From positions 1 to 21,267 of IMG/VR virus record IMGVR_UViG_3300046328_000181: a stretch of 21,267 bases of DNA, one strand, 5' to 3'. The stretch comes from a virus. Positions 1-21,267 of the stretch are shown one piece after another. Position 1 is the stretch's first letter; each line of letters starts with the position of its first letter. Both the position numbers and the translations under genes were made by a program. The notes below the pieces were generated by a model, which saw nothing but the letters and a program-made list of their open reading frames with translations, was not told the origin of the DNA and made no database searches.

Positions 1-707
1 CGGCCACAGCGATGGCCCAGCTACAGCCACAGGCCAACCCAGAGCTTGAGTCGGCACAGCAGCAGCTTGCAGCACTCACACAACAGCTTCAAGAGGCACA
101 AACCAATGCTGACCGGCTGATTTACGAGTCAAAGATCAAGGCTGATGACCGCATCCGTGAGCTGACAGTGAAGGCGGAGCAAGAAACCCTGGTTGGATTG
201 TCCAAAGAGCGTGAGATTGAAGCCCGCAAGGAGACTGAAATCGAGAAAGCGCGCATTAACGCCGACGCAACCGTAGAAGCGGCGCGCATTCAGGCCAACC
301 AGCGCAACGAAGTAGATGCACTGCTGTCCAAACTGACGGACTTGCAAAAGCAGGTTGCAGATATGGTTACGGATAGCAACAAAGCCATAGCAGAGCATGA
401 AAAAGCCATTGCGAAGGTAGAGCAAACCCACGAAAAGACCGTGGCACAGCTTGAGAAGGCCATCGAAAAGACCATTGAGCAGTCTGAAAAGGCTATCGAG
501 AAGGTCAAAGCCGACGTAGAGGCCAAAGAAGCCAAGGAAGAAGCCAAAGAGCCGGAAGAAAAAGAGTCAACCCCGCCTGTTATCAATGTAAACGTGCAGA
601 TTGATGGCCAAGGAGAAGTGACGAAAGAGATTGTCTTGAGCAAAGACAAAGACGGCAATGTGACTGGCGGCAAGGTCACGCAGAAGCAGGCGAAGAAGGC
701 TAAATGA
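1..707 (+). CDS. C-terminal part of a phage protein, possibly the portal protein (5' end outside window)
   Basis: The frame is open to the left edge (first full codon at position 3), and the first ATG at 12 has no Shine-Dalgarno sequence in the 11 bases before it, so this is probably the tail of a longer gene. The 235 visible codons are very rich in Q, E, K and A. A Gln-rich stretch is followed by a long predicted coiled coil with recurring EKAI units (about residues 120-170 counted from the ATG at 12), then a K/E-rich linker. The end contains INVNVQIDGQGEV and KDKDGNVTGG, a short beta-type tail. Portal proteins of P22-like and related short-tailed phages often end in such Gln-rich helices and a small beta end, and the position upstream of scaffold and capsid genes fits. 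This is inference from composition and position; a different coiled-coil virion protein is possible. It overlaps the next gene by ATGA. Confidence 0.55.
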   Translation, partial: ATAMAQLQPQANPELESAQQQLAALTQQLQEAQTNADRLIYESKIKADDRIRELTVKAEQETLVGLSKEREIEARKETEIEKARINADATVEAARIQANQRNEVDALLSKLTDLQKQVADMVTDSNKAIAEHEKAIAKVEQTHEKTVAQLEKAIEKTIEQSEKAIEKVKADVEAKEAKEEAKEPEEKESTPPVINVNVQIDGQGEVTKEIVLSKDKDGNVTGGKVTQKQAKKAK

Positions 708-3301
708 CGGCCTACACGATCAATAGCGGGGCTCTGACGTACTTTGACGCCCAAACTACGCCCAGCGTCAATGCCACGCTGGATACCTATGCGATTTCCA
801 ACCAGTCCACATTCGTAGTACGCACAGACACCAATGCCTGCCTGAACCACTCGGTAGCTGGCGGCAGCTTAGACACGGTAACTTTCACTGGCACAGGCGG
901 CACACTTCGCTTTGACCCAACGTATGTGCGCGTGATTGCGTACACGGCTGGCTCTGGTAACTCTCCAGCATTCGGTGCAACCATCAGCCAAGGCGGTGTG
1001 TCGGGTGTGTTCTTGGGCGCGTGGACAACCAATTGGCAAACCGAATGCATCGTGCCCGGAGCAGCCATTGGTGCGGCTGGCTTCATCAAGATCGGTGGCG
1101 TTACAGGTGGCAACTTCGCAGCGGGTGCTTTGACTGGCATCACTGCTACTTGCTCTGGCCCCGATGTGCAGGGCTGGATTGAGGTGCGCGGCGACACGAT
1201 TGCGACCATCACCGTTCCCCGTGTCGGCAAAGTAGAGTCGGTTGAGGCGTGGTTTGAGATTGGCACAACCAGTGGTACGGCTGGACAGATTATCTCTTGT
1301 CCAACCACTGCCACCAACGCCAGCACGTTTCCGGGCGTGTGGATTGAAACCGGAGTAGGCACTGGGGTGTACGAACCCTATGCTTCCGTGGGTACTGTTG
1401 TTGCACTGGCGACCCACCGCACAGATGCATCCATGAAGGTCATCACCCAGACCACGGGTGGCATCCGCATCGGAAATGACGGTACAAACAACGTGTTCTT
1501 TTTGCCCGGAGCAGGGCGCAAGGTTCGCATACCCGCAACTCTGCTGACCAACAGCACCCGCACAGTCTCAGGAACTGGCCCACGGGTACTGCCAAACGCA
1601 ACCATCGGCACACGGCAAGAGTTCGTCACCACGGGCGCTGGATTCTTTGACCTTCGCGGGGTCATGTCGCAGTGGTACATGAACTTTTCTCAGGCGTTCT
1701 ACGTCAAGTACAAGTCGTGCGCTATTGCTGACTCTATGGTGCTGTCCGAGATTGCATCGCCATTGGATGTGGACGACTGCATAGTTGCACCAACACAGGC
1801 CCAGCTTAACTTCGCGCTCAACGTGAGTTCCTGCTTTGCGGGTGGCACGATTCAAAACAGCGTGTTCAACCGATTCAGCTTGGCTGCTTCGGGTGCGTAC
1901 ATTGGCTCTATCAACTTCGCAACCGGGGTTACTTTCAGCGGTAACAAGTACCTTTCCGGCACCCTGCGCGGTAACGGAACTACGGGCGCTATCACCAGCA
2001 CACAGGCGGTCGCCTGCACCTTTACCAACGAAACCTTTATCGGTGGCCGTGGCCTGTTTGTGGGCGCACAGCGTTGCACGTTCAACAACCTGAGCTATTA
2101 CGACCACACGATCACCACGACCACCACATCGACCAACGCCATGTACGCACTGGACTTCTCCACGGGTTGTGCGGATACCGTAGTCAATGGCTTCGCCATG
2201 CCCAACGCTGCTGTCGGCCCCTATAACGGGCTGGTGCAAGGCAACGCCTGCTACAACACGCTGATAAAGAACATCGGCACGACTTACACCACGCCGCTGG
2301 TCATGAATGCGTCAGTCACGGGCCTCATTGTCAACGGCGCAGGCAACAACGACGGTATCACCATGAAGCGGTGCTATGTAAGCAACACCCGCTCTGGGCC
2401 GTATGCTTTTCTGAACAGCGATACTAACATTCTGGTGGAGAACATCAGCGGCGACACTGCGGATACTTCTGTGGTGGCAGGATTGAATGCGGTGATAAAA
2501 AACGCAATGCTGACTGGCGGCACTGGCGGGCAGATTTCGGTGTACGGAACCCACTGGCTAACTCGGTTCACATCGACTACAGCTGGCTTTGCCGAGATTC
2601 TTTGCAACGAGCCAACCTCTGCCAGTGCAGCGCAATGCGTAACCACGGGCGGCACACCTCAGTTCAACTCCAGCGGCTCCGTGCTGCTGACAAAAGTTGG
2701 CGACCAAGTAGTCTGGGAAATGCCGTTCTTTGCGGTGGGCTATACCGCTTTCACCAACAGCGCACCAACCATCACTGGCACGAACGTAACCTTCTCCAGC
2801 GGCTCCACATGGGGCAACCACACGCTGGAGTTTCAAGTCGATACAGGCTCTGGCTACGGTGGCACTTGGCTGGCGCTGAATGCCGCAACACTGATCGGGC
2901 AGACGTTCAACAGCACCGCAGGCTTCCGGTTGAAGATTCGCGCTACCTGTTTGACTGCCAACGCTGGAAACGTGCTGACTAACCTTCGGGTGGCACTGAC
3001 TACAACGCAGACTGACCGTGACACCAAGTTGTATCCGCTGTCTGTGAACACCATCACCTTCACTGGTCTACCCACAGGCACGGACGTAGTGGTACTGACC
3101 GCTGGCACATCGACCATTCTGGCAAGTGTTGACGCTGGCGCAGGTACTACATACGCCTTCCAGTACGAGGGTACGCCGAGCATCGACATTGGGTTTATCA
3201 ACGCTGGCTTTGTTCCTCAATACATTCGCAATCTGGCGCTTACCAGCACAGATTCATCCATCCCCGTCAGCTTAACTGTTGACCGCAACTACGCAGCATA
3301 G
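704..3301 (+). CDS. Large beta-helical virion/tail protein (865 aa)
   Basis: This is a long Thr/Gly/Ala/Asn-rich protein with few charged residues, typical of phage fibre, spike or collar proteins. About residues 340-610 hold repeated short turns with Asn, Gly and Cys (for example TIQNSVFNRFSL, NTLIKNIGTTY) consistent with a right-handed beta-helix. A beta-sandwich-like part follows near residues 690-770 (GTWLALNAATL, GFRLKIRATC). A final domain starts at about residue 785 (TFTGLPTGTDVVV) and ends DRNYAA. That final domain recurs inside the 1162-residue protein at 5342-8830 (FTGLLSGSQVVV ... DRSYVA). The ATG at 704 overlaps the previous stop (ATGA), pointing to coupled translation. The role as a virion surface protein is inferred from composition and neighbours; no catalytic motif is recognised. 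Confidence 0.75.
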   Translation: MTAYTINSGALTYFDAQTTPSVNATLDTYAISNQSTFVVRTDTNACLNHSVAGGSLDTVTFTGTGGTLRFDPTYVRVIAYTAGSGNSPAFGATISQGGVSGVFLGAWTTNWQTECIVPGAAIGAAGFIKIGGVTGGNFAAGALTGITATCSGPDVQGWIEVRGDTIATITVPRVGKVESVEAWFEIGTTSGTAGQIISCPTTATNASTFPGVWIETGVGTGVYEPYASVGTVVALATHRTDASMKVITQTTGGIRIGNDGTNNVFFLPGAGRKVRIPATLLTNSTRTVSGTGPRVLPNATIGTRQEFVTTGAGFFDLRGVMSQWYMNFSQAFYVKYKSCAIADSMVLSEIASPLDVDDCIVAPTQAQLNFALNVSSCFAGGTIQNSVFNRFSLAASGAYIGSINFATGVTFSGNKYLSGTLRGNGTTGAITSTQAVACTFTNETFIGGRGLFVGAQRCTFNNLSYYDHTITTTTTSTNAMYALDFSTGCADTVVNGFAMPNAAVGPYNGLVQGNACYNTLIKNIGTTYTTPLVMNASVTGLIVNGAGNNDGITMKRCYVSNTRSGPYAFLNSDTNILVENISGDTADTSVVAGLNAVIKNAMLTGGTGGQISVYGTHWLTRFTSTTAGFAEILCNEPTSASAAQCVTTGGTPQFNSSGSVLLTKVGDQVVWEMPFFAVGYTAFTNSAPTITGTNVTFSSGSTWGNHTLEFQVDTGSGYGGTWLALNAATLIGQTFNSTAGFRLKIRATCLTANAGNVLTNLRVALTTTQTDRDTKLYPLSVNTITFTGLPTGTDVVVLTAGTSTILASVDAGAGTTYAFQYEGTPSIDIGFINAGFVPQYIRNLALTSTDSSIPVSLTVDRNYAA

Positions 3302-3309
3302 GAGTCATC

Positions 3310-4710
3310 ATGCCAAAAATCACCTCACAAGCCGCCCTAATCGTAGGCACTAACTTAACCATTGACGAACCCGGACGAATTATTACGCTGAATGCCGGTG
3401 GTGCGCTGGTGGCTAAAGACGGCGTGACTTGGCAGGCGCTTTACTCCAAGCTGGTTAGTCTTTGGGCCACCTCTACCTATCAGGACAGTCCATTTCCGGC
3501 CTATGGTATTGATGCCTTGTCGGGGCAGTTCCAGATCGGCACGGATGGCTCCAGCTTTTCTGGCTGGACATTCTCTAATGTGGACTCCAATGCCACGCGC
3601 AATATGCTGCGTGACGGCGGCTGGTCTGAGTTCGACAACACAGGTGCATTGCTGCAACAGTTCGCAGGCTTCATTGGTCTGGGTGGTCTGACCCCGGCAA
3701 CTACTGTCCAGCCCTACTACCACTTGGCTCCAGCGGACGCTGCGGTCAACTTCCCGTTTACTGACCAGTTCAACGTGGGCGTGAAGGTGTTTGGCAACGC
3801 AGCCAACGGCAACTTCGATAAGCGCACCTACGCCAAGACGTTCGCCCGTGAGTACGGCAAAAAGTTCAAGTCCTCCGTGCTGGCAGACACAGGTGCTACA
3901 GGTACTGGAGCCAACAAGGTCAACTTTCTGGTGTCCAATGAGGATGACTTGAAAATCACTGGCTTGCTTGGCTCTGTGCAAGCTACTGGCGACGCAGCTA
4001 TGTCCGGCGCTCCCTACTCCGGCATCACTGTGGCGTACTACACCGCAGATCAGACACGCTCTATCGCAGGAACCAACCGCAACTTCAAGATCATCATCGA
4101 AGGCAATGGCGGCACGCTAGAGCAGATTTACGCCAAGGTGCAGTTCATGCTGCGCCAAGCCACTGACATTAACACTGGCGGCACTGCTGGCGTGAAGTTA
4201 GGAAAGATTCAGGACGAGCTACTGAAGTTTGTAGCTGACACACTGGTAACGAGCCAGTCGGTGTTTATTGATGACGTACTCCCTGCTGACAGCAACAGGG
4301 TCGAGTTCTATGACGATTCCAACACGCTGCGAATCAACAACTTCACATCAGCCGGTACGCTCAACTTCAATGCGGCACTGGTCGGTGCAGGTTCCAGCTA
4401 CCGACTCATGTACACCTCACCCACGGGCGCAGGCAACGACTACGGCGAGGCAGGCGCGATCACGGTCAACAACGCCGCAGCTACTCCAATCACTGGAACG
4501 ATCAGCACAGGCTCAATTGCCTTCGACTTCGATTGGAACGGAAACGTGCAGGGCGGTTACGCAGGCTCCACACCACGACCAGTCACCCTTATCGGTATCA
4601 AGCCCGGAGTCAACGGCGGCAAGTTCGCGGTAGCAACAGGAACCATCACCCAGAGCAAGACCATTTCCTTGTCGCTGGTTGCCGAGCAAGACCGTGTTTA
4701 CGCAGCATAA
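3310..4710 (+). CDS. Phage tail/virion structural protein (466 aa)
   Basis: No named family is recognised with certainty. The protein is Thr/Gly/Asn-rich and beta-type. Residues about 10-290 are collinear with residues about 540-800 of the 1162-residue protein downstream. The best anchor is VFGNAANGNFDKR (around residue 168) against VFGDATHGNFDRR (around residue 693), followed in both by an acidic DDLKITG / EDQLYIIG segment. The C-terminal third (from about residue 320) is Asn/Thr-rich beta sequence ending DRVYAA, echoing the DRNYAA end of the gene before it. The start is well supported: GGAG overlaps the upstream TAG stop (TAGGAGTCATCATG). It probably assembles with the flanking proteins in one appendage; that is inference from paralogy and linkage. 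Confidence 0.75.
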   Translation: MPKITSQAALIVGTNLTIDEPGRIITLNAGGALVAKDGVTWQALYSKLVSLWATSTYQDSPFPAYGIDALSGQFQIGTDGSSFSGWTFSNVDSNATRNMLRDGGWSEFDNTGALLQQFAGFIGLGGLTPATTVQPYYHLAPADAAVNFPFTDQFNVGVKVFGNAANGNFDKRTYAKTFAREYGKKFKSSVLADTGATGTGANKVNFLVSNEDDLKITGLLGSVQATGDAAMSGAPYSGITVAYYTADQTRSIAGTNRNFKIIIEGNGGTLEQIYAKVQFMLRQATDINTGGTAGVKLGKIQDELLKFVADTLVTSQSVFIDDVLPADSNRVEFYDDSNTLRINNFTSAGTLNFNAALVGAGSSYRLMYTSPTGAGNDYGEAGAITVNNAAATPITGTISTGSIAFDFDWNGNVQGGYAGSTPRPVTLIGIKPGVNGGKFAVATGTITQSKTISLSLVAEQDRVYAA

Positions 4711-4713
4711 CCA

Positions 4714-5271
4714 ATGCCAATCACCTTCGATGCCGCCAACAAGCGCATCATTCTTGATAGCGCAAGCGTAACTGCGACTGAGCTTTACAGCCGGTCTGTG
4801 GACTGGCTGGCGCTGTCCGACAACGCCAAGTACGGGGCTGTGTTTCGCACGGCTGGCGGGGACGATTTAGGTGGTGGTCTGTCCATCCCGCCTTACTTCT
4901 TTTTGCAAGGCGCTTGGCGGGTTCGCCCGATGGAAGCCAACCAGAACCTGACGATCACTGGCAACCTGTTTGTGGATGGTGGCGGGGTTCCGGTGGTGGC
5001 GACATTGGGCACTTTCCAAGTCAACGTGAACTACACCGTGCCAGTGCAGGCGCAGGGTATCAGCACATCAGGTGGTAGTGGGCCAACGGCGGCTGAGATT
5101 GCCGCCCAAGTTCGCACCGAGCTTGCCGCCGAACTCGCACAGCTAACCAAAGTCTCCAAGATTCACGGTGTCGGCGTACCACTGGTAGTAAGCGCCACAT
5201 CGCGTACCGCAGGCGACGTATCTCAAACAATCTCCACAGTCGGTGGAACAACTACGGTGAGCGCAGCATGA
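4714..5271 (+). CDS. Small tail/virion protein with conserved xVRTEL tail (185 aa)
   Basis: This is a compact beta-rich domain (FDAANKRIILDSASVTATEL, LYSRSVDWLALSD, FFLQGAWRVRPMEANQNLTI) of a type often seen in tail-appendage gene clusters of proteobacterial phages. It is followed by a Gly/Ser linker and the short helix AAEIAAQVRTELAAEL (about residues 125-140). The same order of elements occurs at the C-terminus of the 1162-residue protein: FDG/IQIDAND-type strands, RTFFGAITA, then VAVASQVRTELTTEL (about residues 945-1100). This gene therefore looks like a free-standing copy of that C-terminal part. It starts three bases after the previous stop without a clear ribosome binding site, so translation may be coupled. 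Its stop overlaps the start of a 25-residue ORF (ATGA). The exact function is unknown. Confidence 0.75.
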   Translation: MPITFDAANKRIILDSASVTATELYSRSVDWLALSDNAKYGAVFRTAGGDDLGGGLSIPPYFFLQGAWRVRPMEANQNLTITGNLFVDGGGVPVVATLGTFQVNVNYTVPVQAQGISTSGGSGPTAAEIAAQVRTELAAELAQLTKVSKIHGVGVPLVVSATSRTAGDVSQTISTVGGTTTVSAA

Positions 5272-5345
5272 CCTTCCTACTCGGCTTAATCCTCGGCGCT
5301 TGCCTCGGCGTGGGCGTGATGTGTTTGGTTAGGGGGAATGGATGA
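5268..5345 (+). CDS. Tiny single-pass membrane peptide (25 aa)
   Basis: This is a short ORF coupled on both sides by ATGA: its ATG overlaps the stop of the 185-residue gene, and its TGA (5343-5345) overlaps the ATG of the 1162-residue gene at 5342. The peptide starts MTFLLGLILG and ends CLVRGNG. It is one hydrophobic helix with glycines at 6, 10 and 14 (a GxxxGxxxG zipper) plus G16, cysteines at 12 and 19, and a basic residue at the C-terminal end. It recalls the small DUF3789-type membrane peptides found in phages and bacteria; that resemblance is from memory, not from a search. A GGTGAG sequence lies six bases before the ATG. An alternative is that this stretch is only a leader carrying the AGGGGG ribosome binding site of the next gene, but the double stop-start overlap argues for translation. 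Confidence 0.55.
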   Translation: MTFLLGLILGACLGVGVMCLVRGNG

Positions 5346-8300
5346 CGGTCAACAATAACAACGTCCGTTTTTACACGACCAAACCAACGGCGGTTTCGCC
5401 TGTAGTTGAAGGTTCTGCTTTTACGGCTTATGTGGACAGCGGCAACGCTAACGGCGCAACTGGAGGCACCAATACGGCTTTTACCGGAAGGCGTGGTGCG
5501 AGGATAGCCATACCTTCGACTCAGGACATTACTACGCATCGTTATGTTAGCTTTTACCTGTACTCAGAATCTGGCGGGTGGGCATCAAAACTTGCAACCA
5601 TTGCTAACGGTGGGATACGATTTGTATTAGTTGATGGCTCTGGCAATTACGCTGGGTACAACATTTATGGCTCTGGCATACCGGGGCTAGATGACAGTGG
5701 CCCTTCTGCCGAGGGCTTGTTAGCAGGATTTGTAAATGCAGACGCTGGAAACGCACCGGAATGGTTCATCGACCACACAAGGACTCCAGATATATCTTCT
5801 GGAACGCTCGACAAGACCAATATCACGCACTTTGAGTTTTCGATCAATTTAGCCTCTAGCGCGTCACCGAGTTTGTGGTTGCTGTGGATTGGGAAGCAAA
5901 ACGCCCCCTCTATAACTGGCACTGAAACCCTGCTGAATGTTGCTACCGCTTTTGAAACTGCTGTAAGCATTCAGAAGTTTAACAAAGTCATCAACCGTAC
6001 GCCTTGGTATTTTCAGTCGTCGTCGCAAAGTCTATTTAACGGGGCAATCGGCTTTACTGTTGGTAATGGGTCGACAACTACAAACTGGACTGACTCAGCG
6101 TTTCAGATAGGCTGGAAGAATACCTACGACAAGTCTCCAACGTATAGAGCGACTGGTCCAATGGTGCAGCTTGACAATAGCAACACCCGCCCACTTTTGA
6201 TTAACCAAAGCGCAACAGACACGCTAACTCTTTCGGATGGCTCCATTGCTTCTGCTGCATGGTGGCAGTGGCAATTGCAAGGCTCAGGCACAGCGACCAT
6301 CTCTCGCGTTCAATTTTGGCGCTACAACCAATTCCTAGCGGCTCACGGCTCTTACACCGATTGCATTTGGGACGGTGGCGAGGCAGCGGTAGAGATTGGC
6401 ACAAGCACAGTCCTGACACGCGCAACGATCAGGAATTGCACCAACGGCATCAAGATTTTGAGCGCAGCGGGGACGTACAACCAGACGATCACATTCAGCA
6501 ACCAGACAACTTACGACATTGAATGCGGCGCGGGTGGCGCAGGTACTTACAACTTGCCCAATATCTCTGTGGTGGGTGCGTACACGCTCAAGATTCGGAA
6601 TAACTCAGCGACGAATGCGGTGACCGTGGTTATTCCTTCTGGCATCGCCTTCACATCAAGTCATGCTGGCGGCGGTATCACGGTAACGCAGACCCCTCTC
6701 ACACGGGGTCTGGCTTTCACTGGCTTGCTCTCCGGCTCTCAGGTGGTTGTGTACGACACCGGCACAACAACAGAACTTTTCCGCACCAATAGCAGCGGCT
6801 CCAGCGCAACGTGGAGCGAGACAGCTACCGGCGCCAAGACGGTGGACTACACCATCATGCTTGCGGGTCGTTTGCCTATTCGCGTGGCTGGTATCACGGT
6901 GACTGCTGCAATCTCTGGTGGCGTGGTATCCACTCCAATCTCGCAGGTGCTAGACCGCTCGTATGTCGCATCGTCCGGGTTGATCTTCACCACCAACTGC
7001 ACCTTCAACGCTGGCACCAAGATAGCAACGTGGAGCATAGCCACGACGGTGCAGAACTTCTATTCCTTTGCGATAGAGGCGTGGATAGCTCAGTCATCGC
7101 TGCGAAATGTAGCCTTCCCATTCACCACCAACGGACCAAACTCGTTCACGTTCGGGAATGATTGGGAGGTTCGCGGCTTCACCACAGCGGGTACAGGCAT
7201 CAGTAACACATCGCTGGCGCTTCTATCTAAGGATGGTTTGCGTTACCAAAGCGCAGCGGGGGCCGACACCGCAATCTTTGCAGCCATTAACTCGGTTGAC
7301 ACTGCCGCAGGTTTACAAATCAACTACCAGCAGACGGACGGCGGCACGACCACGGCAGCGCAGAACACCGGAGCGATTGACCAACTGATTCAGGTCTTTG
7401 GCGATGCCACGCACGGAAACTTTGACCGCCGCAGCTTCCTATCGCTCAAGGTGCAGAAGGATGGCTTCGATCAGGCTGAGACTGATGTGGTGGCGACTTA
7501 CGGCAATCTGGAAGATCAGCTTTACATCATCGGCTTGAACCCGCTGAGTAATGGGTTGACCACTGGCGCACCCACGGTCAACGGTTCACCCACCATTACC
7601 GACCACGGCGCAAGCCCTGTCACTTGGAACGCCAAGCAGTTCAGCATCACGATCACCGACTCGGCAGCAGGCAACACCGGAACTACGCTCATGCGCTGGA
7701 TTCGCTACAACCTCGGTCTTGGCGGTACGTTCCAAGGCAAGGCGGCGTTCAACTGGCACGACCTCGTACAGACAAACGGTACGTCATTCAAGACGGTACG
7801 AGGCAAGGTCTATGGCGACACAGGCGCGGCACTCAAGGGTGTTCGCGTAATAACCAACGCAGGCAACCCACACCCAGACTTCAACCTGCATACCGCAGAT
7901 GACGGTACGACCTTCGCTCCAGTGTTCCCCGCCTCGGCAACCGCTACGGTGCTGGCAGACACGCGTCTTCAGCTTTACAACGTGACCACATCGACGGAGC
8001 TAAACAACGTCTTTGTAACCGGAACCTCGTACAGCTTCGTGGTATCTACCGGCGTGACGGTTGGCGATACCCTGCGCCTTCGGGCTTGCAAGAAGGGTCG
8101 CTTGTCGGGTGAGGCAATTACCGTGTGGAGCGCAGCGGGAGCTACGTTCTTGGTCAGCCAACCGGAAGACACGATCTACACTGCATGGGGTATCGACGGT
8201 GCTACGGTCACTGAGTATTCTCTTGATGGTCCGAACATCCAGATCGACGCTAACGACGTTGACGGCTCCACGCAGAAGATTCGCCTTGGTGCGTACTTTA

Positions 8301-8830
8301 GCTACGCGCTGACCTTGGATGTGGGCATCCGCACGTTCTTTGGCGCTATCACTGCACTGGCCGCAAGCTCCATCCGAATCAATGTGGGGGTGGCTAACCT
8401 GCGGATTGACAACACCAACGCCACAACGCCGCTGGTGTTCACTGACGTAAACGTGCGGCTATTCCGCTCGGACGGCTCCAGCATCATCGCGCCCGTCAGC
8501 TACACCATCCACAGCGATTACAACGGTGAGCCGTTCACGGTGGAGACAGGGGTTTCTGGATTGACCGGCCCTGAGTCGAGTCAGTTGCTCGGCTTGCCTA
8601 GCGCGGTGGCTGTTGCATCGCAGGTTCGCACAGAATTGACAACCGAGCTTGGCAGGATTGACGTAGCGGTGAGCAGCGTAAGCGCAGGAAGCGCCCCAAG
8701 CGCAGCTACCGTGGCGGCTGCGGTACTTGCTGCGGCAAACGCAACTCCCATCGCTGCCAGTGTCGAGCAGGTAAACGGCGTGACTATCCAAGGCTCGGGT
8801 ACAGCGCTTGACCCAATGCGTCCTGCGTAA
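5342..8830 (+). CDS. Giant multidomain tail/virion protein (1162 aa)
   Basis: This is a modular beta-rich protein. Residues 1-320 look like a globular beta domain rich in aromatics (HRYVSFYLYSESGGW, SLWLLWIGKQ). About 330-450 are helix-like beta repeats (IWDGGEAAVEIG, ATIRNCTNGIKIL). About 455-540 match the C-terminal domain of the 865-residue protein, ending DRSYVA. About 540-800 match the 466-residue protein (VFGDATHGNFDRR). A GKVYGDTGAALKGVRV segment (about 820-840) resembles a carboxypeptidase-regulatory/Ig-like beta-sandwich. About 945-1100 match the 185-residue protein (RTFFGAITA, VASQVRTEL). It ends in an Ala/Val-rich helix and NGVTIQGSGTALDPMRPA. AGGGGG five bases before the ATG serves as ribosome binding site. 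The first third is clearly AT-richer than the rest, hinting at domain exchange. It is probably a tail fibre or collar component; no enzyme motif was seen. Confidence 0.75.
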   Translation: MTVNNNNVRFYTTKPTAVSPVVEGSAFTAYVDSGNANGATGGTNTAFTGRRGARIAIPSTQDITTHRYVSFYLYSESGGWASKLATIANGGIRFVLVDGSGNYAGYNIYGSGIPGLDDSGPSAEGLLAGFVNADAGNAPEWFIDHTRTPDISSGTLDKTNITHFEFSINLASSASPSLWLLWIGKQNAPSITGTETLLNVATAFETAVSIQKFNKVINRTPWYFQSSSQSLFNGAIGFTVGNGSTTTNWTDSAFQIGWKNTYDKSPTYRATGPMVQLDNSNTRPLLINQSATDTLTLSDGSIASAAWWQWQLQGSGTATISRVQFWRYNQFLAAHGSYTDCIWDGGEAAVEIGTSTVLTRATIRNCTNGIKILSAAGTYNQTITFSNQTTYDIECGAGGAGTYNLPNISVVGAYTLKIRNNSATNAVTVVIPSGIAFTSSHAGGGITVTQTPLTRGLAFTGLLSGSQVVVYDTGTTTELFRTNSSGSSATWSETATGAKTVDYTIMLAGRLPIRVAGITVTAAISGGVVSTPISQVLDRSYVASSGLIFTTNCTFNAGTKIATWSIATTVQNFYSFAIEAWIAQSSLRNVAFPFTTNGPNSFTFGNDWEVRGFTTAGTGISNTSLALLSKDGLRYQSAAGADTAIFAAINSVDTAAGLQINYQQTDGGTTTAAQNTGAIDQLIQVFGDATHGNFDRRSFLSLKVQKDGFDQAETDVVATYGNLEDQLYIIGLNPLSNGLTTGAPTVNGSPTITDHGASPVTWNAKQFSITITDSAAGNTGTTLMRWIRYNLGLGGTFQGKAAFNWHDLVQTNGTSFKTVRGKVYGDTGAALKGVRVITNAGNPHPDFNLHTADDGTTFAPVFPASATATVLADTRLQLYNVTTSTELNNVFVTGTSYSFVVSTGVTVGDTLRLRACKKGRLSGEAITVWSAAGATFLVSQPEDTIYTAWGIDGATVTEYSLDGPNIQIDANDVDGSTQKIRLGAYFSYALTLDVGIRTFFGAITALAASSIRINVGVANLRIDNTNATTPLVFTDVNVRLFRSDGSSIIAPVSYTIHSDYNGEPFTVETGVSGLTGPESSQLLGLPSAVAVASQVRTELTTELGRIDVAVSSVSAGSAPSAATVAAAVLAAANATPIAASVEQVNGVTIQGSGTALDPMRPA

Positions 8831-8832
8831 TC

Positions 8833-9294
8833 ATGTGGATTAACGGGTTCTGGGCTAACGGGTTCTGGGTCAGCGGGTTCTGGGAGGGTGATGTATTGCC
8901 TCCGTCCGTTGGGAGTGACCTTGACCCACTGGCCGTTGCGGTTCAGGGTATTGGGTTTACGCCGGTTCGCGTTGCCGTTCAAGGTCTTATCGCTCAGATC
9001 CAAGAGGAACATCAGAGCCAGATTTATGGAAGTGGCAGAAACAGCTACATCAAGCCGGATCCATTCGCAGACGGCAAGCCGCTACTAAACCCAGCTGACG
9101 ATGATCTGATCCGAAAGGTTCAGGAGAAGTGGGACGCGATTGAGGCCAGCCAACTTCCATTTGAAATGGAGGATGGTGGATCCAAGAAACCCCAGCAGAT
9201 TGAACTCCCCAGCATCGAGAGTGCTGCGGATCTAAGAACCAGACAGCAGCAGGAGCAGACAGCACTTGTCTTGTTGCTTTTGGAGGCGGCGTAA
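8833..9294 (+). CDS. Small phage protein with NGFW repeats (153 aa)
   Basis: The N-terminus carries three pentapeptide repeats, INGFW, ANGFW and VSGFW (residues 3-17), encoded by three 15-bp tandem units. A short beta stretch (PLAVAVQGIGFTPVRVAVQG) follows, then a Gln/Glu-rich helical part and a hydrophobic C-terminal end, ALVLLLLEAA. Short proteins opening with W/GFW repeats are found beside tail-appendage genes in other phages as far as I recall, but no function is established to my knowledge. The ATG lies two bases after the previous stop and has no clear ribosome binding site, so coupling with the 1162-residue gene is likely. It could be a small virion component or an assembly factor for the big protein. 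Confidence 0.65.
   Translation: MWINGFWANGFWVSGFWEGDVLPPSVGSDLDPLAVAVQGIGFTPVRVAVQGLIAQIQEEHQSQIYGSGRNSYIKPDPFADGKPLLNPADDDLIRKVQEKWDAIEASQLPFEMEDGGSKKPQQIELPSIESAADLRTRQQQEQTALVLLLLEAA
8839..8883 (+). repeat. Three 15-bp in-frame tandem repeats encoding xNGFW
   Basis: The units are ATTAACGGGTTCTGG, GCTAACGGGTTCTGG and GTCAGCGGGTTCTGG. The last ten bases are nearly identical in all three, so this is a recent or constrained duplication at DNA level, not only at protein level. It lies directly after the start codon of the 153-residue gene. Confidence 0.9.
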
Positions 9295-9318
9295 GTAACT
9301 CAACAGGAGAAATAAGCA

Positions 9319-10194
9319 ATGGCAACTGAATTTACAGAGCAAGAATTGGCATCCATGACACCGGCCGAGCGCGAGGCGGTGACGGCCGAGGACGATGACA
9401 GCGATATGCAGAGCAATTTTGGTTACGACGATGATGTAACCGATGTTGTGCCAAAGGAAGCGCCAGCAGCGCCGAAAGAGGATCCAGCAGGCCTGTTTGA
9501 AGATGACGGCGCAGCCCCCAAGGCCGCGTATGTGGCAGCTGACGTAGAAAACTACGACGAGAAGGTAACTGCGCTGGAAACCAAGAAGGATGAAGCCTTC
9601 AAGCAGATGATGGACGGCGAGTTGGCCGACTCCGAGTACCGCACCATTGAGAAGGAAGTCAGCTCCGAGCTGCGCAAGCTGGACCGCGATCAGGCCAAGG
9701 CTGAAATCAGCGCCGACATGACCCAGCAGCAGGCCCGCGGCGCGTGGGGCGACTACGTTGAGCAGCAGATTGCCGCCAACAAGGCCGCTGGCGCTGATTT
9801 GTCAGCAACCGATGCGCTGATGGCCGAGCTGGACCGAACGACCCGCCTGATTGCAGCGCAAGTCAGTCAGGATCCGAGCATGGTCAAGCACTTGTTGCCC
9901 ACCAAGGCCGGTGCGCTGATTACCAACGTGGACAAGTGGGTGCTGAATGAGGCTATCGAGATAGTCAAGACCCGCAACAACCTGCTGGCCAAGACTCCGA
10001 TCGACGATGCAAGGCGCAAGCCAGGGCCACCGGATCTGAGCAAGATACCGCCATCGCTGGCCAAAGTGCCACCGGCTGCGGATCCAGTTATCGGTGCAGA
10101 CGAGTTTTCGCACCTGAATGGCCTCAAGGGTGTTGATTACGAGCGCGCGTTAGCCCGCATGACTCCGGATCAGCTTGAACGCTTCATGGGATGA
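9319..10194 (+). CDS. Capsid scaffolding protein (291 aa)
   Basis: This is a strongly acidic, low-complexity helical protein placed before the major capsid gene, the usual place of scaffold genes in short-tailed phages. Residues 20-75 are rich in D, E, A and P (DVVPKEAPAAPKEDPAG). About 78-130 form a charged predicted coiled coil (EKVTALETKKDEAFKQMM). A further helical region spans 135-220, followed by a Pro-rich linker (KPGPPDLSKIPPSLAKVPP). The C-terminal helix contains DYERALARMTPDQLERFMG, similar in style to the L(S/T)PDELERF-type ends of phage scaffolds, which in P22-like systems bind the coat protein. It is expected to guide procapsid assembly and then leave. AGGAGA lies upstream of the ATG. 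The stop overlaps the next start (ATGA). Confidence 0.75.
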   Translation: MATEFTEQELASMTPAEREAVTAEDDDSDMQSNFGYDDDVTDVVPKEAPAAPKEDPAGLFEDDGAAPKAAYVAADVENYDEKVTALETKKDEAFKQMMDGELADSEYRTIEKEVSSELRKLDRDQAKAEISADMTQQQARGAWGDYVEQQIAANKAAGADLSATDALMAELDRTTRLIAAQVSQDPSMVKHLLPTKAGALITNVDKWVLNEAIEIVKTRNNLLAKTPIDDARRKPGPPDLSKIPPSLAKVPPAADPVIGADEFSHLNGLKGVDYERALARMTPDQLERFMG

Positions 10195-10478: not shown

Positions 10479-11225
10479 GTGTCCAACAAGATTGCCATTT
10501 ACGCACTGACCGACCCGAATACGGGTTGCGTGCGCTATGTCGGCAAGTCCAAGGACTTGGATTACAGGGTGCGATACGGCCACCTTGGCTCCGAACTCAG
10601 AAAAGCATCACTTCACAAATCCAGATGGCTGCGCAAACTTGCGTCTGTCGGATTGAAGCCCACGGTTGAAGTTCTTGAGTGGGCTGATGAAGCCGAATGG
10701 CAGGAGCGTGAGCGCCACTGGATAGCGCATTACCGCGCGCTTGGTGCGCCACTTACCAACATGACGGACGGCGGCGATGGGGGTTGCATTACGCACACAC
10801 CAGAGACACGCAAGAAGATGTCGGATGGGCGAAAAGGAAAGTCTCGCGGCAAAGAATTTTGCGAAACGATGCGCATTGCAAACAAGGACGCACGCCCTTC
10901 CGAGGCTTGCGAGATTGCGCGCTTAAAAGCCATCACTGGTAAGCCTGCGCACCCAAATACCAAAGCAGCAATTATTGCGTTTAACCAAGGCAATAAACAT
11001 GCTGCGCGGCATCTATATGTAGCTATCGACAAAGACGGAATGCGTCATTTTGTCGGAAGCGAAATGACCGAGTTTTGCAAAAAGCATTCACTCGATCAAG
11101 CGCGAATGAGAACACTTGCAAAGGGCGACCCTCTGCGCAAGTCTCATAAAGGGTGGACTTGTTTCTCAATGCCACTCAACCCCAAAGGCGCAAGAGTGCC
11201 ACAACTTGCCAACCTTAAGGAGTAA
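10479..11225 (+). CDS. GIY-YIG homing endonuclease, free-standing
   Basis: The N-terminal GIY-YIG nuclease domain is clear: A6-I7-Y8 in place of GIY, Y20-V21-G22 with GKS, the expected catalytic Arg at R30, a conserved Glu before W81-I82 (E78 or E76), then LTNMTDGGDGG. A NUMOD3-type DNA-binding motif follows (THTPETRKKMSDGRKGK, about 105-121). A C-terminal Y-x-DG-x-F-x-EFCKKH ... KGW module (about 180-230) resembles helix-turn-helix repeats of homing nucleases. Such enzymes cut related phage genomes lacking the gene and so spread it. The start is GTG at 10479, with TAGGA eight bases upstream. Parts of the gene are AT-richer (about 43% G+C at 10981-11100) than the capsid gene (60% at 11641-11700). 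It sits between scaffold/CsrA-like and capsid genes and leaves only five bases before the capsid ATG. Confidence 0.9.
   Translation: MSNKIAIYALTDPNTGCVRYVGKSKDLDYRVRYGHLGSELRKASLHKSRWLRKLASVGLKPTVEVLEWADEAEWQERERHWIAHYRALGAPLTNMTDGGDGGCITHTPETRKKMSDGRKGKSRGKEFCETMRIANKDARPSEACEIARLKAITGKPAHPNTKAAIIAFNQGNKHAARHLYVAIDKDGMRHFVGSEMTEFCKKHSLDQARMRTLAKGDPLRKSHKGWTCFSMPLNPKGARVPQLANLKE
11187..11199 (+). repeat. Direct repeat GGCGCAAGAGTGC, right copy
   Basis: This second copy of the 13-bp repeat at 10431-10443 lies inside the last codons of the endonuclease gene, just before the leader of the capsid gene. Confidence 0.75.
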
Positions 11226-16657: not shown

Positions 16658-19333
16658 ATGGCAGTAATTAAGATCACACAATTCGGTGGTGAGCAGCCAA
16701 GCATTTCTGACCGAGCTTTGCCGCCAAGTGCTTCCCGCGCAACTAGCAATCTGTACGCGCGCACTTTCGAGTTTCGCCCATTAGCAGCGGATACGAGCGT
16801 TGCCACGTGCAACAACAACCCATCGTCACTATTTCGTTTTTACAGAAATCCATCTGACGGCACGATCAACAACAACCTGACAACCGGATGGGTGTCGCCA
16901 AACTCGGGGCCTGTGTATCACTTTGCCAGAGGGATGTTGAACGATAACATCACCGAGCGGACCTATGTGTCCACTATCGACGGCAGCGTTGAGCCAACCG
17001 TCGGAAGCAACAACACCAATATCATTACTTCCGGCTCGTATGGCAAAACGCTAGGCGTACCGGCTCCAGCCGCGTCAAGTATCACACCGACTCTCGGTGT
17101 TGGGTTTACAGCGGAGCAACAAGATGCGGCAAAGCTGTCTGTCCCGGTAGCACTTGCAAACGCGGTACGAAATTCGCTGTCCATAACGTACTTCGGGGAC
17201 CCACCGGCCACGCTCAACGTCGTTACCACAACCACTGGACCGCAGTGGGTGGACCCCAATGATGCGACGGCAATGTCTAGGTACACATCGGCGCTCCCCA
17301 CTGGACGCGGTAAGTTCTTCTTTCTGCTGCCCATAACAACCGGCGGCGGCGTCATAACCGTGGATGCACCGTATAGCGGGTATGCGTGGGTTCTTAACCC
17401 CGCGCTAGGCGGCGTAAAGATTACCGCCATCGGGTCAGCCCCCGTACTTCTCGCCAACCGCAACAAAGAGTTTTGGGCGATTCCATATCAATATCAAGCG
17501 GTTGGCTACTCCATCAGCCTGACCACGCTTCTGGCGGAGATTGAGAAGATACCTTACCCGCTTACCGGTGTTGCAAGTCAGGGCGACGCGCATTGGATAA
17601 ATTCAAGAGCCGCAAACAACAGCAAGACCTTGCAACTAGCCAATACGCTCGTTTCTCGCTACCTGATAGCAGACGGCGTGTACCCGCATCTTTGGTCTGT
17701 GGCAAGGCCAACATCGGCACCGGTTTCTACTGTGGCAGGGACTATCACTTATTCGGCATCCAAGGACCTGACCTCGGCCCTCGACGTGTTCAAGAAGTTT
17801 CAATCGAGTTTGGTTTACACGTTCGTCACCACGGCGGAGGCGGACGCTGCTTCATTGGCAACCGGCCTGACGGTAAAAGAATTGAACGCTGCCAAAGTTA
17901 CTAATGCATCGCGCGGGCAAGCAGACTTACTGGTGGCTGCAAGTGCGGTGACAGCGGTGTTTGACGCAACAAATGCCAATATTGTGAACATCATCACAGG
18001 GCAGACATTTTGGGCCGAAGGCTTTATGCCGCTACTGCCTCCCGTTGGGCAACCGAAGCGATACACCACCTACTACGTTACAACTTTGGTCACAAGTTGG
18101 GGTGAGGAATCTGCGCCCTCTGCGCCCGTAGGGCCATTCGACATAGACCTTACTTACGACTCAGTAACCATACCAAGACCGACAGAGTTGGCAAGTGGCC
18201 CAACTGTGGCTCAGTACGGACTTGTCGGCTGGAGGCTATACAGAGCCAACACAGGAACCACGGGCACAGCCTTCCAGCTTGTCACCCCAACAAACCGGCT
18301 GTCTAACCCGATAGAAACCAACGGTGCGTTTGACTACCTGACTGCTACGACTTTCGCGGATGCGAAAAGATGGACGCAATTAGCGGAAGTGCTGCCTTCA
18401 ACGGATTGGTTGCCGCCACCGAAGATAGTCAAAGGGGCAACCACGTATTACTTGGCAGGCATAACGCAAGTTACCAACGGCGTGATGGCAGGCTTCATCG
18501 ACAACAACCTGTATTTCTGCGAGCCCTACCAGCCGTATGCGTGGCCGGAAGCGTACCGCTTGACAACCAAGGAGCGGGTGATCGGCATCGCCAATTTCGG
18601 GCAAACTCTGGCCGTTCTTACCGCTGGAGCACCCTATTTGTGCGGCGGGTCAGATTCGGCCAGCATGTCGCTGCAAGAACTGCCAAGCCCGCAATCATGC
18701 GCGAGCGCACGGTCCATTGTCGCTACTGAAAATGGTGTCCTGTATGCATCGCCTGACGGACTGTGCATGGTGGACCTCGGCGGCGTGAGCATCATCACAG
18801 AGGGTCTATTTACTAGGGACGACTGGCAGCGCCTTACGCCGTCCAGCATTTTTGCCGAGTACCACGACGGCGTGTACTTTTTCAAGTTCTCCGGCACGGC
18901 ACCGGACGGCACCAGCGGGTTTTGCTACGCAATAGACTTTGCCGCAAAGAAGCTGACACGGCTCGATCTGTCCTGCACGTGCTTGTATAACGACCCCATA
19001 ACCGACACTTTGTACGCGGCCAACGGCACAAGCATATCCGCGCTCTTTTCTCACGCATCCAACAAGCGCACTGGTGTTTACAGAACGGGCGTTATCAAGC
19101 TAGAAGCACAAACGGGGTTCGCATGGCTTCAAATCGACAGCGACTTTACTTCCTCCGTTGTGTTGCAGTGGTTCGGGGATGGCTCGTTGGTCTATACCGC
19201 CACGGTCACAAGTATTGCTCCGGTTCGCTTGCCAGCAGGGCGCTACTTAGAGCATCAGCTTGTCTTAACCACGGCCTCGCGCGTTACTTCCGTAACGATG
19301 GCAAGCTCCACACAGGAACTAAAAGCAGCATGA
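16658..19333 (+). CDS. Large tail protein, P22 gp10-like beta-propeller type (891 aa)
   Basis: The C-terminal half follows a pattern widespread in short-tailed phages and prophages: WRLYRANTGTTGTAFQLV, then NNLYFCEPYQPYAWPEAYRL (about residues 615-635), VIGIANFGQTLAVLTAGAPY, SCASARSIVATENGVLYASP, DGLCMVDLGG and FTRDDWQRLTPSSIFAEYHD. This is a set of blade-like repeats comparable to the packaged-DNA stabilisation protein gp10 of P22, which plugs the portal channel and attaches the tail needle. The end (VLQWFGDGSLVY, RLPAGR) is a beta-sandwich-like cap. Residues 1-450 form an extra N-terminal region absent from the shorter gp10 (472 aa in P22 by recollection). GAGG lies seven bases before the ATG. 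The stop overlaps the tail spike start (ATGA). Confidence 0.75.
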   Translation: MAVIKITQFGGEQPSISDRALPPSASRATSNLYARTFEFRPLAADTSVATCNNNPSSLFRFYRNPSDGTINNNLTTGWVSPNSGPVYHFARGMLNDNITERTYVSTIDGSVEPTVGSNNTNIITSGSYGKTLGVPAPAASSITPTLGVGFTAEQQDAAKLSVPVALANAVRNSLSITYFGDPPATLNVVTTTTGPQWVDPNDATAMSRYTSALPTGRGKFFFLLPITTGGGVITVDAPYSGYAWVLNPALGGVKITAIGSAPVLLANRNKEFWAIPYQYQAVGYSISLTTLLAEIEKIPYPLTGVASQGDAHWINSRAANNSKTLQLANTLVSRYLIADGVYPHLWSVARPTSAPVSTVAGTITYSASKDLTSALDVFKKFQSSLVYTFVTTAEADAASLATGLTVKELNAAKVTNASRGQADLLVAASAVTAVFDATNANIVNIITGQTFWAEGFMPLLPPVGQPKRYTTYYVTTLVTSWGEESAPSAPVGPFDIDLTYDSVTIPRPTELASGPTVAQYGLVGWRLYRANTGTTGTAFQLVTPTNRLSNPIETNGAFDYLTATTFADAKRWTQLAEVLPSTDWLPPPKIVKGATTYYLAGITQVTNGVMAGFIDNNLYFCEPYQPYAWPEAYRLTTKERVIGIANFGQTLAVLTAGAPYLCGGSDSASMSLQELPSPQSCASARSIVATENGVLYASPDGLCMVDLGGVSIITEGLFTRDDWQRLTPSSIFAEYHDGVYFFKFSGTAPDGTSGFCYAIDFAAKKLTRLDLSCTCLYNDPITDTLYAANGTSISALFSHASNKRTGVYRTGVIKLEAQTGFAWLQIDSDFTSSVVLQWFGDGSLVYTATVTSIAPVRLPAGRYLEHQLVLTTASRVTSVTMASSTQELKAA

Positions 19334-21267
19334 GCACTCCAGCGAAATTACCCGCGTTGCAGCCGCCACGGACAACACGCGACGGCGCATTGGACCAGTG
19401 GATTCAAGCGGTTACTGAGCGCATGGAGGTGCGCGAAGGTCGTCGCGGCGACGATCTGGAAAAGGTGCTGACGCGCCGCGACGTTGGCGGGTATAACCTG
19501 AGCGACGTTACGACGTTCTTAGCCACCACCGGTCAAGGCTTCATGCAGAAGCAGCAAGACGGCAGCTACGACTACGTTGACGCTACCGAGTTATCTGAGC
19601 AGCTTCGCAGTACCGCGCTATTTCAGGCGTTGCTATCTGGCACCAAGGAAGGCGCTGAATATGACGTGCTCCCTCAACGGGTGCAGTCTTTAGTTGCCAA
19701 CGGCATATCCGATATTCGTTCGGCGCAAAAAGCTGATTTTGATAACCTGCGTACTCAGTTGACAACGGGGCTGTCCATTTCTGGCGGCGGCGGTGCGAGT
19801 GCTGTATGGATTAACGTCAAAGACAGCCCCTACAACGCAGTAGGCGATGGAACAGCCGACGACACTGCGGCCATCCAATCCGCCATCAATGCCGCGCAGG
19901 CCGCAGGAGCAAACGGCAACATTGTCTATTTGCCAGCGGGTAACTACAAGATCACCAGTAACCTGATTATTACTTGGCCGAACTCCACGACGGATTTCAG
20001 CCGAGAGGGGAAGGTTTATTTGCGCGGCGCTGGCTCCGGTTTAACGGCTCTGTTCGACAACCGCGCAAGCGTTGGTACGGGCGGCTGTGTAACCTTGGAC
20101 TTCTCGACCACGGGCGGGCCCGGAACCCCCGACGTTGATTTGAGCGAACACTACATGTTCACTTACTTCGGCGGGTTCTCAATATTAAAGAAGATCAACT
20201 TTACGGTAGCACTTGACGGCGGCGGGCTACCGACGTACCCATCTGTCGGGACCGGAGTTGGCTTGTATGTTGAGCGGGTTGTCTGCGGGACGTTCGTTGA
20301 TTTGATTATTAAGGGCTATGCCACCGCCATCAAGCTAGTGGACAACCTCGGCGGCTCAATTCGTGACTGCATCATCCAAGAGCATTTGGTCGGCATTGAT
20401 TACACCGGTTACTCCGCGTTCTCTCAATCCACCGCTACGCAGGTTGATAACGTAACCATCGCGGGTTGCCGGGATTGGGGTATTCGCAATGTCGGCGGCA
20501 GCACGTTCACGATACGCGACTGCACCATTGAATCCAGCGGGAACCTAAGTACGACTTCTGGCGGCATTTATTACCAGAACCCCGACCCGATATTGATGGC
20601 AAAGGGGCTGACGGTTGTTGACTGCTACTTTGAAAGCTGCTTCGGCGCATCGTTTATTTACATCGACACACCAACAGGAAAATTGGCTGATGTCGCCAAC
20701 AGCGTAGTAAATTGCGTTTTTACCAAGACCAATGGCACGTACTTTGCCACCAACTACATTGCGGTGAACGTCGTAGGGACGACCACGATGGAGCTTCTAG
20801 TGATGAACTGCGGATTCCGTGGCTTCAACTCTTACGTTCCTAGCGCAGCGCGTCCGGTGGTTGGTTTGTATGGCTCCACAACCAATGTAAACATCACCTA
20901 CATTTCCAACAAGTTCTACGACACGGTTGAAATTCCAGCCGGTGCCGAACTTTCTATGGGGGTACCCGCGCGGGGAATGAAGATCGGTGCCACAGGGAAG
21001 ATTGAGGCTGACGCCGTCACCCTAACCATCGGCTCCGCAAGCAACAGCATTTATGTGTCGAGCGTTGCGGGAGGGGGGAATCAGGGTCTATTCCCATCGG
21101 TAACAAACACGATGATGCTCGGCGGTGGCGCGTTCCGATGGTCAAACGTGGTTGCCTCGGCTGCAAACATAACAGGCATCTTTACGTGGAACACCTACGC
21201 CTACGCGGCCCCAACAGGCGGTACGACGACTTTCATGCGAAATGACGGCACGTGGTCCGTGCCACCC
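19330..21267 (+). CDS. Tail spike with pectate-lyase-like beta-helix (3' end outside window)
   Basis: The frame is open from ATG 19330 to the right edge (646 codons). The first 145 residues or so are mainly helical and probably attach to the virion (KLPALQPPRTTRDGALDQWI; SLVANGISDIRSAQKADFDN), ending in a Gly-rich linker (SGGGG). Then comes the start of a Pectate_lyase_3-type domain: WINVKDSPYNAVGDGTADDT, AAIQSAINAAQAAG, IVYLPAGNYKIT, VYLRGAGSG. Repeated beta-helix turns follow (SIRDCIIQEHLVGIDYTG, TFTIRDCTIESSG, LTVVDCYFESC). Near the right edge, FRWSNVVASAANI and FMRNDGTWSVPP resemble sequences that precede a C-terminal tip or chaperone domain. Such spikes bind and often degrade host capsule or O-antigen. 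Catalytic residues cannot be assigned by eye. Confidence 0.85.
   Translation, partial: MSTPAKLPALQPPRTTRDGALDQWIQAVTERMEVREGRRGDDLEKVLTRRDVGGYNLSDVTTFLATTGQGFMQKQQDGSYDYVDATELSEQLRSTALFQALLSGTKEGAEYDVLPQRVQSLVANGISDIRSAQKADFDNLRTQLTTGLSISGGGGASAVWINVKDSPYNAVGDGTADDTAAIQSAINAAQAAGANGNIVYLPAGNYKITSNLIITWPNSTTDFSREGKVYLRGAGSGLTALFDNRASVGTGGCVTLDFSTTGGPGTPDVDLSEHYMFTYFGGFSILKKINFTVALDGGGLPTYPSVGTGVGLYVERVVCGTFVDLIIKGYATAIKLVDNLGGSIRDCIIQEHLVGIDYTGYSAFSQSTATQVDNVTIAGCRDWGIRNVGGSTFTIRDCTIESSGNLSTTSGGIYYQNPDPILMAKGLTVVDCYFESCFGASFIYIDTPTGKLADVANSVVNCVFTKTNGTYFATNYIAVNVVGTTTMELLVMNCGFRGFNSYVPSAARPVVGLYGSTTNVNITYISNKFYDTVEIPAGAELSMGVPARGMKIGATGKIEADAVTLTIGSASNSIYVSSVAGGGNQGLFPSVTNTMMLGGGAFRWSNVVASAANITGIFTWNTYAYAAPTGGTTTFMRNDGTWSVPP

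Follow-up and report, generated by a model that had tools for sequence, protein, structure and literature searches.

A putative horn-type appendage encoded in both split and fused form in a Bcep22-like phage fragment

The window (the whole 21,267-nt stretch of viral DNA analyzed, IMG/VR record IMGVR_UViG_3300046328_000181) is, by its capsid protein, a fragment of a Bcep22-like phage, and at 704–8830 it carries four adjacent genes that raise the question of whether one phage encodes the same device twice, once as three proteins (A, B, and C) and once as a single chain (D). A sequence-only reading had proposed that A, B, and C are a split copy of D, produced by tandem duplication followed by gene fission or fusion, and all four genes do exist where that reading placed them (Table 1). 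Searches of Pfam and PHROGs placed none of the four proteins in a significant family (the Syn5 proteins discussed below were likewise left without one by PHROGs), while a PDB sequence search gave no meaningful match and megablast against phages returned zero matches.

Table 1. Features of the A-B-C-D locus (window coordinates)
Feature	Position	Strand	Description
A	704..3301	+	865 aa; long variable N-terminal part and C-terminal connector domain
A connector, residues 784–865, ends DRNYAA	3053..3298	+	Equivalent to D 457–543; hhalign, domain tree
B	3310..4710	+	466 aa; Syn5 gp53 homolog over full length
B residues 7–351	3328..4362	+	Equivalent to D 544–870; hhalign
C	4714..5271	+	185 aa; N-terminal domain conserved (Syn5 gp55 family), C-terminal tail exchangeable
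C residues 2–132	4717..5109	+	Equivalent to D 958–1082; hhalign, shuffles
Possible 25-aa membrane peptide MTFLLGLILGACLGVGVMCLVRGNG	5268..5345	+	Between C and D, 4-base overlap with each; weak DUF3789 match below cutoff
D	5342..8830	+	1162 aa; fused single-gene version
D 1–455	5342..6706	+	Exchangeable N-terminal part; encoded on its own in L068, in the slot of A
D 457–543	6710..6970	+	Connector domain, equivalent to A's end; hhalign
D 544–870	6971..7951	+	B-like part; hhalign and Syn5 gp53 match
D 865–955	7934..8206	+	Second connector copy, where B's end would be; hhalign
D 958–1082	8213..8587	+	C-like domain; hhalign, shuffles
D 1086–1162	8597..8827	+	Exchangeable C-terminal tail, predicted helical; common to C-slot proteins of other phages

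Compared as single sequences by blastp, A 696–865 matches D 378–543 (27.7%, E 5e-7), B 144–235 matches D 672–750 (30.5%, E 1.5e-4), and C 124–144 matches D 1086–1106 (52% over 21 residues, E 3e-4). Comparison of family profiles with hhalign, the check suggested by the sequence-only reading, strongly aligned A 784–865 with D 457–543 (probability 98.5%, E 3.5e-15) and B 8–185 with the D 543–712 segment (99.3%, E 3e-20), the B match extending over B 7–351 and D 544–870 when the whole D core was used (98.9%, E 3e-17). The match of C 2–132 to D 958–1082 is modest and the weakest of the three, with a probability of 46% (E 2e-4) against the whole core and 83% (E 9e-6) against the segment alone; it was insignificant without the wider D family and rose once more D relatives were added. 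Against a null of profiles with shuffled columns, the real scores were never reached, at 105 versus a best null of 25 for A–D (0 of 40), 137 versus 30 for B–D (0 of 40), and 41 versus 30 for C–D (0 of 100). The matches are collinear, as proposed, and the D ranges first assigned to the three segments (455–540, 540–800, and 945–1100) were close, except that the B match reaches to about D 870. The motif AAQVRTEL, which had been quoted for the C match, sits in the exchangeable C-terminal tail, but the folded domain of C matches independently, if more weakly. A ends at D 543, B starts at D 544, and C starts at D 958; that is, the split genes are delimited at domain borders of the fused protein, in keeping with the earlier placement of stop codons at domain borders. 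The two connector copies within D also match each other by hhalign (96.7%, E 4e-10), and a profile comparison of D 865–955 with the C-terminal end of B itself was not significant.

Both forms recur in other phages. B relatives are encoded in 276 viral-contig stretches, and A, B, and C stand together as a gene trio in dozens of viral contigs. The nearest homologs of A and B are separate genes elsewhere (79% and 89% identical, respectively), and C 1–133 is up to 85% identical in other contigs, with a variable tail. Fused relatives hold the connector, the B-like part, and the C-like domain within one chain. Counting the window, 24 distinct sequences encode this D core (455–1085), and their N-terminal parts and tails vary. 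Identity between D and fused genes in other phages is about 60%, and a single profile built from 14 D relatives was too diverse for scanning. An assembly error or frameshift as the origin of the split was rejected because the borders of A, B, and C are identical in dozens of contigs. Against relatives, pN is 0.07–0.27 and pS 0.64–0.77 for A, B, C, and D, a sign of coding constraint; all four genes are intact, and neither version looks decayed, with purifying selection apparent in both. In one contig (L163, 7790–12257) the D-family gene lies in two ORFs (D 499–602 and D 675–1049), either a frameshift or a natural split. B homologs in L019, L069, L070, L083, and Rctr197k (gene 178, L095) carry an insertion at about residue 264–269, an internal module border.

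What the proteins might be is indicated by cyanophage Syn5. B matches Syn5 gp53 over its whole length (tblastn, 34%, E 5e-53), and gp53 also matches D 569–794 (27%, E 8e-10). The resemblance to Syn5 gp54 is confined to its C-terminal domain, residues 538–618, which matches A 780–863 (E 1.5e-5) and the connector of D (E 4e-5), and C matches gp55 (41%, E 4e-16). These alignments relate A to gp54, B to gp53, and C to gp55. In the Syn5 record gp53 and gp54 are annotated as "structural protein" and gp55 plainly as gp55; gp53 and gp54 reportedly make up the head horn. Syn5 bears its horn, an unusual structure, opposite the tail, and capsid stabilization has been proposed as a purpose for it (PMC10575957). 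Genes of the gp53, gp54, and gp55 types are neighbors in the horn operon of Syn5 and in S-TIP28, as they are in the window and some 50 further distinct sequences. However, Syn5 and S-TIP28 are T7-like cyanophages, the order is 53-54-55 in Syn5 and 54-like, 53, 55 in the window, the Syn5 horn genes lie near the terminases rather than between portal and scaffold, and Syn5 yielded no fused copy. The B structure model (mean pLDDT 80.7) gave nothing below E 1e-3 by fold against the PDB; its best viral fold match is a 622-residue Syn5 structural protein, the length of gp54 (E 1e-6, low TM-score). The model obtained for D is of poor quality (mean pLDDT 61), with helices in the tail at 1089–1111 and 1121–1134 at low confidence; its top PDB match by fold is to the HFTV1 capsid turret (E 1.4e-3), a suggestive hit only. 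Maribacter phage Panino (L094, 15563–18981) has two gp54-type proteins of 35% mutual identity beside a gp53 homolog, a duplication of the A-slot gene.

How did the two versions come to lie together? The sequence-only reading had invoked tandem duplication in place, with fission of one copy, and the side-by-side, collinear arrangement of split and fused versions is what such an event would leave. Yet the two window copies are not each other's nearest relatives: A and B are closest to separate genes elsewhere and D to fused genes, A–D and B–D similarity is only about 28–30%, and the corresponding interval of relatives carries a single version. Sister pairing of A with D and of B with D in the window was rejected by the AU test (p 5e-6 and 1e-5, respectively), and we regard in-place duplication in the window phage as extremely improbable. 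The fission or fusion itself stands as a real event, but an old one, in that a single fully supported branch (100) of the tree of B-like sequences parts split from fused copies. Of the 14 fused-type rows in the tree of connector domains, 13 group as a single clade (support 98), the exception being the A-slot protein of L068, which is itself not fused and whose connector falls in the split-type (A) clade. Among 132 distinct sequences, 93 carry split B, 24 carry fused D, and one (the window and its strain contigs) carries both; the loci counted extend no more than 10 kb from the match, and a second copy lying farther off may have escaped the count. Throughout the rest of the sample the two forms are mutually exclusive. 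The trees and the AU rejections together indicate a single separation of split and fused forms within this sample, earlier than the divergence of the phage types, with both later brought together by the window phage. A recent duplication is thereby refuted; an ancestral one predating all sampled phages may have occurred.

The equivalence of the two forms is also displayed directly by fusions and exchanges in relatives. Three contigs (L107, L108, and L110) encode a 1632-aa protein in which an A-like portion (residues 1–859, 31–35%) is fused to the D core (residues 989–1607), and L102 has a similar fusion. The 1145-aa protein of L156, a D-family member, combines full-length gp54 homology (gp54 1–618, 30%, E 2e-42) with gp53 39–259 (33%, E 4e-17) and D 457–1059. 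Conversely, in L068 a separate gene in A's slot (8227–9828) matches D 1–542 (40%, E 4e-118) and is followed by separate B and C genes. The tails are exchanged in both directions: the D of L004 carries a tail resembling that of window C, and C proteins of other phages carry tails resembling that of window D, the D 1086–1162 profile matching C-slot proteins in L028 (E 1.7e-20), L077, L047, and L050. The natural fusions suggest which horn-type proteins touch. They also bear on the possibility that modules are merely shared promiscuously and that A-B-C and D are not versions of one device, a reading to which the occurrence of the C-terminal tails in other proteins (L086–L091) and the weakness of the C match on its own would lend some weight. 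We hold it to be very unlikely, and largely refuted by the natural fusions, given that three segments match in the same order with matching borders, that an A-like part and the D core (L107), or gp54 and gp53 (L156), share one chain, and that the two forms exclude each other outside the window.

The genomic setting speaks to where the products might act. In a same-strain contig (L006; A 100% and B 99.7% identical) terminase, a 154-aa gene, and portal lie upstream of A, whose start overlaps the portal gene by 4 bases; the portal is directly upstream of A in L007 as well. In another Bcep22-like contig, L010, the portal is followed by A, B, C, a 238-aa gene, scaffold, and capsid, without D. In L099 the run is D, a 132-aa gene, scaffold, and capsid, and A-B-C is absent as far as the contig reaches, its stretch beginning just upstream of D. 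The window combines all four genes in this interval. The cassette adjoins portal or terminase in quite different phages too: D directly follows the portal in L097, with a major head protein after it, and directly follows the terminase in L005. This setting favors a head appendage, short of proof. Burkholderia phage JC1 and other Bcep22-like phages (Lessievirus) have a capsid 45% identical to that of the window, related scaffold and portal proteins, and the same head gene order, but JC1 has neither A-B-C nor D in the portal–scaffold interval. Caudoviricetes phage ctPCi537 (MW202577) has the A-B-C cassette in the order of the window (A 36%, B 46%, C 37–39%), without D, and a 713-aa protein annotated "collagen alpha 1" takes the next place. 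In Curvibacter phage PCA1, a different phage type, the C-terminal part of a 981-aa hypothetical protein matches D 791–1079 (35%, E 4e-26), with no match found to the D 457–543 connector or the B-like part.

The products might instead be fibers or adhesins attached to the tail (tail, neck, or whisker) that have modules in common with the Syn5 proteins. Adhesins typically have exchangeable N-terminal parts and tails, the D model has weak carbohydrate-binding-like fold matches, and an A-slot relative has a lectin-like Pfam match. The neighbors, however, are portal, scaffold, and capsid genes (window and L010) or other head genes (L097) rather than tail genes, among viral proteins it is one of the Syn5 structural proteins that B matches best by fold, and the window has a separate pectate-lyase-like beta-helix protein of the usual tailspike kind (19123–21267, cut by the contig end), likely a tailspike of its own. 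On balance we rate tail attachment as unlikely.

We consider it probable that the locus encodes a modular, horn-type virion appendage in two architectures, united in one phage by recombination. In such an appendage A 1–780 and D 1–455 would be exchangeable N-terminal parts with an outward or binding function, joined through the connector to a conserved body (B; D 544–955), with a small domain next and a short tail, likewise exchangeable, at the end (C; D 958–1162). A, B, and C would associate noncovalently in the split form, and the fused form would be one chain. The two lineages would have separated long ago, the window phage gaining both by recombination in the portal-to-scaffold interval. 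We infer that both versions are made and that their products sit on the virion, presumably on the head, as in a horn, rather than on the tail, with the N-terminal part probably the outward-facing end. More tentatively, the phage may assemble a pair of horn-type head appendages simultaneously, one three-chain and one single-chain, both equipped with an exchangeable N-terminal binding part of their own. If so, it would have two surface specificities, and this family of horns would amount to a widespread set of swappable binding devices instead of the peculiarity of one cyanophage. The horn protein family appears to extend to roughly 300 viral contigs, some in Betaproteobacteria MAGs, with split and fused forms and swappable ends, making horn assembly and role testable outside cyanobacteria; its spread, and a phage with both forms, would come as a surprise to specialists.

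Two further features of the region were observed. Between the scaffold and major capsid genes the window has a GIY-YIG homing-endonuclease-like gene (10479–11225). The genes that follow the cassette (window 8833–9294; L010 9703; L007 13388; L097 12446) encode N-terminal repeated Trp motifs, such as NGFWANGFW and SAWGKSWG.
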